Positions 9,590 through 16,959 of a stretch of 64,000 nucleotides of DNA are shown here, in pieces. This DNA comes from Pararhizobium qamdonense. Lineage in GTDB: Bacteria > Pseudomonadota > Alphaproteobacteria > Rhizobiales > Rhizobiaceae. The notes beneath the pieces are model-generated. The model did no database searches. It worked only from the letters and a program-made list of their open reading frames with translations, and had not been told where the DNA came from. Positions within the stretch are counted from its first letter, which is position 1; every line of letters starts with the position of its first letter. The translations under genes were made by a program, and so were the position numbers. The DNA lies in contig NZ_CP119566.1 of assembly GCF_029277445.1 (NCBI RefSeq), positions 1,209,001 to 1,273,000 on the forward strand, in the 5' to 3' direction.

Positions 9590-9710
9590 GCCTTGCCCCT
9601 AGCCCTCTCCCCGCAGACGGGGAGAGGGGACGATGGAGCTTGCCGCTTCTCCCTTCTCCCGGCCTGCGGGGAGAAGGTGCCCGACAGGGCGGATGAGGGG
9701 CCTTTGTCGT
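9590..9710. repeat. RIME-like palindromic repeat element between hmgA and fahA
   Basis: Two successive palindromes are visible: CCTCTCCCCG/CGGGGAGAGG (9604-9613 with 9618-9627) and CCTTCTCCC/GGGAGAAGG (9652-9660 with 9669-9677), ending in GGGCGGATGAGGGGCC. This arrangement resembles the RIME (Rhizobium-specific intergenic mosaic) elements. A related element lies inside pabC at 15287-15427. Confidence 0.8.
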
Positions 9711-14812: not shown

Positions 14813-15598
14813 TCAGTCCTTCATCAGGAGTTTGGCGCGGATCAGCCCGCGCAGCGAATTGCCCATATAGAGTGTGCCGGTCTTCAGATCGGCCAGGGTC
14901 AGGCGCTGGACGCGGGCGCGACGGGCGCAGATCAGCTCGGTGCGCAGCACGCCCGCCAAAAGGCCGCAGGCGACCGGCGGTGTTTTGAGCATCCCCGAGC
15001 CGTCATCGAGAAAGATCGAGGTGATCGTGCCCTCGCAGGGTTCGCCCGTCTCATTGAGCAACAGCACCTCATCGGCATCGGCCGCCGGATATTCGGCGCG
15101 CGCTGCCTCGTAAATTTCGCGCCTTGTGGTCTTGTGGCGCAAAAGCCTGTTGTTGGAATCGAGCCGGGCTGCGGCGATCGCGACGCGCCAGATTGTATCG
15201 GGCGGCAGCGGCGCGAACGGCGCGGTGGTGATGGCGATTTCGCCGGCGGGGCTGAGGGTCAGGCGGACGCGAAGGGGCCCCGGCAGTTGTTCTCTCTTCT
15301 CCCCTGCGGGGAGAAGGTGGCCCGAAGGGCCGGATGAGGGGGGGCGGCTGGTGCTGAATGTGCCGGACGGCCCCCTCATCGCCTCGCTTTGCTCGGCACT
15401 TCTCCCCGCTGGGGAGAAGAGGGAGCGCGCGGGATGTATGTCCCCCAGCACCTCCGACAGCTTTTCCGCAGCCCGATCCGCGCCTAAAAATCCCAGCCGT
15501 CCCGCCGAACGTGTCAGCCGGGCCAGATGCAGCCGCAGGCGGACGATGCCTTTTTCAGGCTCCCATCGCATCGTTTCGATCAGCGAGAAATCGCTCAT
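14813..15598 (-). CDS. pabC: aminotransferase class IV / 4-amino-4-deoxychorismate lyase, carrying an in-frame repeat insertion
   Basis: A PLP enzyme that would release pyruvate from aminodeoxychorismate to give p-aminobenzoate for folate. Conserved features are the PLP Lys region (LLRHKTTRREIYEAA), NETGEPCEGTITSIF and GLLAGVLR. The ATG overlaps the pabB stop by four bases. The protein is 261 aa, about 45-50 longer than relatives as I recall them. The excess, residues ~58-104, is encoded by a palindromic repeat (15287-15427) and reads as Ser/Gly/Pro-rich sequence (SPAGRSAEQSEAMRG, GHLLPAGEKRE). The frame stays open, so the product may be functional. Confidence 0.85.
   Translation of the reverse strand: MSDFSLIETMRWEPEKGIVRLRLHLARLTRSAGRLGFLGADRAAEKLSEVLGDIHPARSLFSPAGRSAEQSEAMRGPSGTFSTSRPPSSGPSGHLLPAGEKREQLPGPLRVRLTLSPAGEIAITTAPFAPLPPDTIWRVAIAAARLDSNNRLLRHKTTRREIYEAARAEYPAADADEVLLLNETGEPCEGTITSIFLDDGSGMLKTPPVACGLLAGVLRTELICARRARVQRLTLADLKTGTLYMGNSLRGLIRAKLLMKD
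15287..15427. repeat. RIME-like palindromic element inside the pabC coding region
   Basis: The segment has two inverted arms. The left arm contains CTTCTCCCC-TGC-GGGGAGAAG and GGCCCGAAGGGCC followed by GGATGAGGGGG. The right arm has CCCCCTCATC and CTTCTCCCCGC/GGGGAGAAG (15399-15419). It resembles the element at 9590-9710 and is a multiple of three within the open frame, so it is translated without a stop. Confidence 0.8.
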
Positions 15599-16752
15599 CG
15601 GTCGATCCAGGTATCGCCGACGGCGAAGCGGGCTTTGAGCAGGCATTCCTCATATTCGGCTTCGGCGGTGGAATCAAAAACGATGCCGCCGCCGACATTG
15701 AAGATGGCTTCGCCTTCCGGAAAGAGTGACAGCGTGCGGATGGCGACGTTGAAGCGCATTGTCCCGTCAGGCGCGATGAAGCCGATCGAGCCGCAATAGG
15801 CATCGCGCGGCCCGTCTTCGAGATCATGAAGAATGTCCATCGCCCGCATTTTGGGCGCGCCGGTGACGGAACCGCAGGGGAACAGCGCTTCGAAAATCTG
15901 GGTGATGCCGATATCGGGCAGCAATTTTGCCCGCACATGGCTGACCATCTGGTGCACGGTCGGATAGGTTTCGATATCGAAGAGTTTGGGCACATCGAGC
16001 GTGCCAACCTCCGTGATGCGGGAAATGTCGTTGCGCAGCAGATCGACGATCATGCGGTTTTCGGCCTGGGATTTCGGATCCTCCCGCATTTCGCGGATCA
16101 GGTCCTGGTCTTCCGCAGGCGTTGCGCCGCGCCGGGCCGTGCCTTTCATTGGGTGCGTTTCGATCCAGCCGTCCTGATCCACCCGGAAAAACAGTTCGGG
16201 CGAGCGCGACAGAAGGGTGGGACCGCCAAGCGAGACCAGCGCGCCATATTTCACTGGTTGCCGCTCGATCAGCGACCAGAAGGCAGCCAGCGGATCGCCG
16301 TTCCAGCGGGCGTTGACCTGCATGGTCAGGTTCGCCTGGTAACAATCGCCCTGCCGCAGATGCTGGTGCAGCCGGTCGAAACGCTGCTTATAGGTCTCAA
16401 AATTCCAGCTTGCGCGGGGCTCGGTGATAAAAGGCTCGTTCTCGATGCGGCGCTGGGGCTCTGCCAGTGCGTGGCCGTCGGCCGGGCCATCGAACACGCC
16501 GAACGCCATCAGCGGCGTGCGGCGGTTTTCCTGCGCGAAGGGGGTAAGCTTTTCTTCAAAGAGGTGACCCGCTTCATAGCTCATGAAACCGGCCAGCCAT
16601 TTGCCTTGCCCGTGGGCGGCTTCCATGTCCTTCAGGCCGGACCAGAACTGCGCCTTCGTGTGGGCGGTGATGATGCGCAACGGCTCGGCAAAGACGGTCG
16701 TCCTGTCTTCGCTGTCGTCCCGGAACAGGACATAGGGGCCGGTGTCGATCAT
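15595..16752 (-). CDS. pabB: aminodeoxychorismate synthase component I
   Basis: Chorismate-utilising enzyme that makes 4-amino-4-deoxychorismate for folate synthesis. The 385-residue protein carries the chorismate-binding blocks GDCYQANLTMQ, PELFFRV, THPMKGTARRG, NRMIVDLLRNDISRI and FPCGSVTGAPK..AMDILHDLE. ATG 16752 is chosen because upstream codons run straight into a dispersed repeat (16775-16912) and have no family similarity. It is coupled to pabC by an ATGA overlap. Confidence 0.93.
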   Translation of the reverse strand: MIDTGPYVLFRDDSEDRTTVFAEPLRIITAHTKAQFWSGLKDMEAAHGQGKWLAGFMSYEAGHLFEEKLTPFAQENRRTPLMAFGVFDGPADGHALAEPQRRIENEPFITEPRASWNFETYKQRFDRLHQHLRQGDCYQANLTMQVNARWNGDPLAAFWSLIERQPVKYGALVSLGGPTLLSRSPELFFRVDQDGWIETHPMKGTARRGATPAEDQDLIREMREDPKSQAENRMIVDLLRNDISRITEVGTLDVPKLFDIETYPTVHQMVSHVRAKLLPDIGITQIFEALFPCGSVTGAPKMRAMDILHDLEDGPRDAYCGSIGFIAPDGTMRFNVAIRTLSLFPEGEAIFNVGGGIVFDSTAEAEYEECLLKARFAVGDTWIDR

Positions 16753-16774
16753 GCGGCTCACGCTTGTGTCCGCG

Positions 16775-16912
16775 TGGATCCTCGGGTCGAGCCCGAGGAT
16801 GACAGAGAATGGGGGAGACGGCGGACATGGGTTTGCCGGCCGCAGAGTGGACGTGACTTTGCAGCCAGCCGAGCCCACGGATCGTCATCCCCGGGCTTGA
16901 CCCGGGGATCCA
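16775..16912. repeat. pair of inverted 29-bp GGATC..CCCGGGTC..GATGAC repeats
   Basis: Positions 16775-16803 and 16884-16912 are inverted near-identical copies (TGGATCC-TCGGGTCGAGCCCGA-GGATGAC type), each itself palindromic around GGGTCnAGCCC. The unit is a familiar dispersed repeat of alphaproteobacterial genomes. It fills the gap between the M3 peptidase gene and pabB. Confidence 0.75.
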
Positions 16913-16959
16913 TACGGGCATCCGCAAAGCTCGCTGTCATCGTCCGTTCCTGCTCAAGT

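Follow-up and report, generated by a model that had tools for sequence, protein, structure and literature searches.

The window analysed here, a 64,000-nucleotide stretch of the Pararhizobium qamdonense genome, contains a pabC gene whose reading frame runs through a palindromic repeat. How does such an element come to lie within the gene for an enzyme, and what becomes of the protein that carries it? The gene occupies positions 14813..15598 of the minus strand (261 amino acids, start chosen as MSDFSLIE..., stop included), inside a longer open frame at 14813..15646 (-) whose translation was taken from the start at 15598. It overlaps by four bases the end of the upstream pabB frame (15595..16878, minus strand), an open reading frame whose related database frame, P0121, carries PF00425. 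The class IV PLP fold, the conservation of the invariant residues and the adjoining pabB gene are those of a PabC protein. The fold is also compatible with branched-chain aminotransferases, and the product is referred to here as a putative lyase.

A dispersed palindrome in the pabC reading frame

Compared with "empty" orthologs of 209 amino acids, the window PabC contains 52 additional residues (~56-107), encoded by positions 15278..15433 of the minus strand with ends uncertain by a few codons. Within this segment lies a 135-bp palindromic element, designated family A (15290..15424, minus strand; residues 59-103), composed of two mirrored units with a CTTCTCCCC-N3-GGGGAGAAG hairpin at each end. 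Inverted-repeat analysis placed the first unit, in coding order, at 15399..15419 (CTTCTCCCCGCTGGGGAGAAG on the plus strand) and the second at 15296..15316 (CTTCTCCCCTGCGGGGAGAAG on the plus strand); the arms, 15291-15316 and 15399-15424, are 92% complementary. A preliminary sequence-only reading of the window had claimed about 47 extra residues (~58-104), matching 15287-15427. The extra segment is real, but alignment with relatives gives it the greater length and the borders reported above. That reading's central observation, namely that a RIME-like palindromic repeat lies in frame within pabC and that the domain sequence is intact on both sides, is confirmed, and its interpretation of the insert is partly supported. 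Its suggestion that the element is of the same kind as a palindrome that it places between hmgA and fahA proved incorrect: the latter, at 9603-9677, belongs to another family, with an 18-nt hairpin core (CTCCCCGCAGACGGGGAG) and a mirrored copy. Two further repeats, at ~16771-16917 upstream of pabB, resemble the common alphaproteobacterial GTCATCC...GGATGAC type, which we take to be akin to CGTC REPs. The accessible text of PMC3733652 describes the CGTC REPs as an alphaproteobacterial group for which no dedicated transposase is apparent.

Family A is a multicopy and mostly intergenic repeat of rhizobia, as judged from searches of the organism's own genome, of the genus and of PLSDB. At least 41 further places in the genome match most of the 141-bp segment with 78-88% identity, a lower bound since 40 of 108 candidates were scored. 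Matches were found in 230 of 72,556 PLSDB records, the leading genera being Rhizobium (134), Sinorhizobium (38), Azospirillum (28) and Shinella (19). Among the 30 matches listed, all but one have no annotated gene underneath in the PLSDB gene table, which is itself incomplete. When empty and filled sites were compared for the target-site duplication of a MITE, no clean duplication was seen, empty sites differing by extra bases at both ends. An Rfam microRNA match to the element was rejected, its score of 29.7 bits (gathering threshold 137) being caused by the hairpin.

An open frame is by itself unsurprising for family A because 21 of 26 anchored genomic copies (29 examined) are open in the frame used by pabC. 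The length of these copies is divisible by three in 9 of 26 cases, and both properties are combined in 7 of 26. Among the family A places in the own genome (30 of 42 loci examined), ten spanning frames were scanned for Pfam domains. Seven had none; in the other three the element lies on the N-terminal side of the domain and perhaps precedes the true start, and none was counted as coding. Thus a single in-frame case is unremarkable; what is remarkable is the pattern among relatives.

Occupancy of the pabC site and its history

The site was defined as the interval after ...LSEVLG and before PLRVRLT and was scored in 26 genomes of the genus. Six of them carry family A (G000, G009, G022, G024, G005 and G018), eight have a palindrome unrelated to it, family B (TTACCCCCCTCTG...CAGAGGGGGGTAA; G006, G017, G008, G007, G004, G016, G012 with two copies, and G025 with a remnant), and twelve carry neither. 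Hence, contrary to the sequence-only reading, the extra residues are not missing from relatives, 14 of the 26 genomes having an insert of one of the two families. Related species do share the same residues, which that reading had named as grounds for refuting it, but shared descent of an old dispersed-repeat insertion explains the resemblance. The insert is read through in frame in 12 of the 14 filled genes. The exceptions are G018, in which the contig breaks inside the family A element and splits the gene, and G016 (L050), in which there is no stop but ~20 residues past the insert are out of frame. The pabC gene of G014 (L049), whose site is empty, is also frameshifted. Given the low completeness of the assemblies (87% for G016, 78% for G014), the G014 frameshift and the partial loss of frame in G016 may, and are likely to, reflect sequence errors. 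The frames extracted from G007, G024 and G005 have no internal stop, though a TAG had been flagged in them at the first pass. In G012 (L051), two B-type elements lie in tandem in the same loop of a 301-residue protein, with the frame kept.

A slip in the window sequence restoring a shorter frame is unlikely since the insert is present also in G009, another genome of the species (92% protein identity), and database protein P0001, 97% identical to the window PabC, represents nine member sequences. A broken or mis-sequenced insert-bearing copy does exist in P0121, a close database frame in which pabB and pabC are fused and the pabC part stops just past the insert. A protein search (best 120 of 2,763 matches) returned further insert-bearing and empty PabC forms in addition to P0121; in-frame shrinkage is seen in P0010, P0041 and P0045 (beside P0044). 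P0045 resembles P0044 minus the palindrome, as left by an in-frame deletion that spared a few flanking residues. In a wider set (80 of 219 named loci), nine matches were longer, and all nine were genus genomes already counted. The other loci, from Rhizobium, Ensifer/Sinorhizobium, Neorhizobium, Agrobacterium, Ciceribacter, Brucella and others, were short, among them L091, which is the cut G018 contig. The idea of a family-wide loop is half true: the site is a loop, but one that is short in the loci examined outside the genus.

When family A was searched for in the DNA of the 26 genomes (with up to 33 candidates scored in each), the top non-self matches to the window element were the copies in pabC: G009 (94%, 217 bits), G022 (91%, 197 bits) and G005 (87%, 170 bits). 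The best match outside pabC scored 168 bits, so that the lead of G005 is narrow. Because the pabC copies are the best-scoring matches, family A in this gene probably derives from one old insertion in G000, G009 and G022, and less surely in G005. The A, B and empty labels require 7 changes on an rpoB tree (25 genomes, G014 left out; shuffled mean 11.5, none of 200 shuffles as low) and 8 on a tree of pabB and the pabC core (24 genomes, G014 and G018 left out; shuffled mean 10.8, 4 of 200 as low). This is the clustering predicted by inheritance. One of the changes could be traced further. G007, which carries family B, is sister to G005 and then to G024, both carrying family A (bootstrap 98-100). 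G007 (L037) and G005 (L045/L057) are 93-100% identical along the locus save for four 100-bp windows of 76, 53, 52 and 82%, spanning ~400 bp that comprise part of pabC and the insert; the first divergent window of G007 is closer to G025 and G017 (84 and 85%). The drop in identity fits a short recombination tract in which A was exchanged for B. The possibility that A landed in the scar of a B element found no support: in 20 of 24 comparisons the alignment of upstream spacers to B did not exceed that of shuffled sequences (mononucleotide shuffles, p<0.05; downstream scores, inflated by shared coding sequence, were left unused).

A second gene, ribD, repeats the pabC pattern at the sequence level, with two palindrome kinds at one place. 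The ribD query matched DNA in 293 of 297 genomes of the family, and the 30 best loci were examined; as the insert-bearing query favours filled loci, the counts that follow are no frequency. Seven loci have palindromes at one place, 22 have none there and one (L268) was unreadable across the site. The palindrome is of the B type in L262-L265, from two genera, and of the 18-nt-core type in L269 and L270, from a third; in L272 it is out of frame with two stops, leaving six of the seven in frame. At the peptide level, B is found also in RibD and in the glycyl-tRNA synthetase beta subunit, and A occurs N-terminally in CcmH and DUF559 proteins and close to the end of an SsuD-like protein. The B-like peptides of glycyl-tRNA synthetase beta proteins P0154, P0156 and P0161 are at three different positions.

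That a single place holds two families in pabC and two kinds of palindrome in ribD, together with the 7-8 changes needed on the trees, could be taken to mean that the site is simply a preferred target at which every species acquired its element independently. This appears unlikely in view of the clustering of the labels on the rpoB tree and of the fact that the family A copies in pabC are mutual best matches, if narrowly so for G005. Moreover, one of the changes fits a recombination tract, and two insertions at least, not one per species, are required. Two or more insertions combined with recombination and deletion explain the pabC pattern.

The insert-bearing protein

An AlphaFold2 model of the window PabC (83-row alignment) has a mean pLDDT of 79, with values below 50 at residues 64-100 and 210-212. 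The long low-confidence stretch sits between helix 40-54 and strand 109-115; the extra segment is thus predicted to be disordered and to separate a helix from a strand of an otherwise normal class IV PLP fold. In Foldseek, the model matched first the chains of the Mesorhizobium structure 3qqm (TMq 0.71-0.72), followed by putative aminodeoxychorismate lyases and branched-chain aminotransferases.

The insert evolves more loosely than the rest of the gene. In eight chosen species pairs, which are not independent, dN/dS was 0.47-1.67 for the insert and 0.12-0.29 for the core, the insert exceeding the core in all eight; the closest pairs have few synonymous changes. The highest value comes from the G000/G009 pair, in which 11.5 nonsynonymous and 2.5 synonymous changes yield 1.67. 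Given so few changes, this excess could be read as selection. Together with the persistence of the insert in several species and the upkeep of its frame, it would suit an extra loop that has been co-opted, and is kept as protein, for regulation, partner binding or stability. We find co-option quite improbable: relatives have unrelated A or B sequences, or nothing, at the site, the remaining seven pairs give 0.47-0.85, far looser than the core, and the insert is disordered by prediction. The opposite extreme, a pabC gene on its way to becoming a pseudogene, its open frame a matter of luck, might draw on the ease with which family A copies are open in this frame, on the broken frame of P0121 and on the three other PF01063 genes in the genome. 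With a core under constraint in every pair, the invariant residues kept and nearly all filled genes (12 of 14) in frame, this reading is very improbable. We read the contrast between a constrained core and an insert that drifts with its frame kept as the mark of a tolerated spacer, and we infer that insert-bearing PabC is made and active and that the enzyme tolerates the insert without benefiting from it.

The account that best explains these data, and that we regard as highly probable, is that of an old family A insertion translated as a tolerated spacer at a recurrent landing place, the spreading being ascribed, as a proposal, to DUF559 proteins. A family A element, RIME/REP-like with its two mirrored hairpin units, would have inserted long ago in the PabC loop between helix 40-54 and strand 109-115. 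Being open in this frame and divisible by three in length, it would be translated as a disordered, Ser/Gly/Pro-rich spacer, which the enzyme would tolerate. The loop would be a repeated landing place, occupied in other species by the unrelated family B; alleles would be swapped by short-tract recombination, and inserts would shrink or disappear through in-frame deletion. Each palindrome family may be spread by a DUF559 (Vsr-like) endonuclease, much as RAYTs are thought to spread REPs.

The in-frame palindrome in pabC is a variant of a phenomenon known from Rickettsia and from REPs. Rickettsia palindromic elements (RPE) are described, in the accessible parts of PMC10969869 and PMC3733652, as ~100-150 bp long and as translated parts of the protein genes into which they have inserted in frame. 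The comparison with them made in the sequence-only reading is apt, as the pabC element is a dispersed palindrome in a protein gene with its frame kept. Unlike RPE, it comes from a free-living rhizobial genus and from a different sequence family, whose copies are mostly intergenic, and it shares its place in pabC with an unrelated family. RIME, the Rhizobium-specific intergenic mosaic elements listed as annotated repeats in the available text of PMC2573895 and PMC2245857, are likewise dispersed palindromic elements of rhizobia; the likeness is one of description, and the window copy differs in being inside a gene. With REPs and REPINs, family A shares the mirrored hairpin units and the many copies. 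According to PMC3733652, genes harbour some of the REPs, several species have REP palindromes in frame, and different REPs are present at approximately one recB site in Xanthomonas. In the literature searched, which covered few subscription papers, we found no mention of two unrelated families at one pabC position, of the same in ribD or of a link to DUF559.

DUF559 genes beside CTCCC/GGGAG palindromes

A RAYT-type mover was rejected as no PF01797 domain (HUH tyrosine transposase) was found in the organism's own genome by a search that matched 5 of 14 control genomes. DUF559 (PF04480) drew attention because family A is fused to many DUF559 genes. The domain is a PD-(D/E)XK, Vsr-like domain, present in Caulobacter VsrA, according to the accessible part of PMC12907096. 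Papers naming DUF559 in the literature searched were not about palindromes, as judged from titles and the opening lines of abstracts.

DUF559 loci were chosen as best family matches, irrespective of palindromes (L200-L203 from the own genome, up to L232 from the genus and L233-L261 from the order, where 72 of 150 genomes have the family), and were scored for a CTCCC...GGGAG core hairpin with arms of at least 6 within 320 bp of the gene. Such hairpins adjoin 30 of 31 untruncated genus loci (33 in the set), the sole miss, L204, being a weak DUF559 match in a frame of 1857 aa, as well as 24 of 25 untruncated order loci (29 in the set); they flank the gene on both sides in 8 genus and 15 order loci. 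Control placements had a hairpin in 0 of 200 cases at rpoB loci, 47 of 873 in 80 pabC regions, pabC inserts included, and 3 of 112 in distant parts of the DUF559 loci themselves, all these controls being unmatched for intergenic sequence, the usual setting of such palindromes. In the own genome, 255 occurrences of the motif CTCCCC-N2..8-GGGGAG were counted over 6.24 Mb, and one of its reversed control; the motif is far too rare for chance to place it beside almost all members of a gene class.

The window element itself is found beside DUF559 genes at ten genus loci, with 88-100% identity over 48-59 bp (L200, L206, L213-L216, L218, L219, L221 and L231); the own-genome locus, L200, matches at 88% over 59 bp, and the other nine at 89-100% except L206 at 88%. 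Shorter or weaker A-like matches (80-91%) at L228, L239, L241, L243, L245, L246, L252, L254 and L257 imply that, outside the genus, A is not restricted to one DUF559 subfamily. Family B adjoins 13 loci with 71-96% identity (L205, L207-L212, L217, L220, L223, L242, L251 and L258). On a tree of 48 DUF559 domains (from 55 loci; seven were dropped when the motif filter found no frame), all 13 B-associated domains form one clade (support 94/93). The A label requires 5 changes (shuffled mean 13.0), and A and B together require 6 (shuffled mean 22.6, none of 200 shuffles as low), in a test that relatedness inflates. From these sequences, A and B, both of which have landed in pabC, mostly accompany different DUF559 subfamilies.

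The neighbourhood gives about an even chance that a DUF559 endonuclease spreads each palindrome family. It seems conceivable, only somewhat less than evenly so, that mobility is not involved, the palindromes regulating or terminating the DUF559 genes, or both gathering in variable regions. The palindromes are indeed often just upstream of DUF559 genes at stereotyped distances, and the controls do not reproduce the intergenic sequence in which they mainly lie. But subfamilies carry their own palindrome family, itself dispersed in the genome, far parts of the same loci are nearly free of palindromes, and the 255 motifs fill at most a small share of the intergenic gaps. On the mobility reading, DUF559 proteins would be dedicated mobility enzymes of a CTCCC/GGGAG superfamily, one subfamily per family, whose repeats insert repeatedly in frame into permissive loops of PabC and RibD; the odds of this we hold to be balanced. 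Such a partnership would, with equal odds for and against, be REP-RAYT-like but built on an unrelated nuclease, in an order of Alphaproteobacteria. In both systems a nuclease gene adjoins the palindromes; here the neighbour is a DUF559 gene and not one for a HUH transposase.

In free-living rhizobia, the pabC locus is a case of palindromic repeats that appear to have become part of a protein, and it provides a natural experiment, in which the same PabC loop of close relatives contains A, B or nothing. Should the link with DUF559 prove causal, it would identify the spreader of one superfamily of alphaproteobacterial palindromes. A widespread nuclease family would also gain a role, alongside the one in mismatch repair that PMC12907096 reports as proposed for VsrA.
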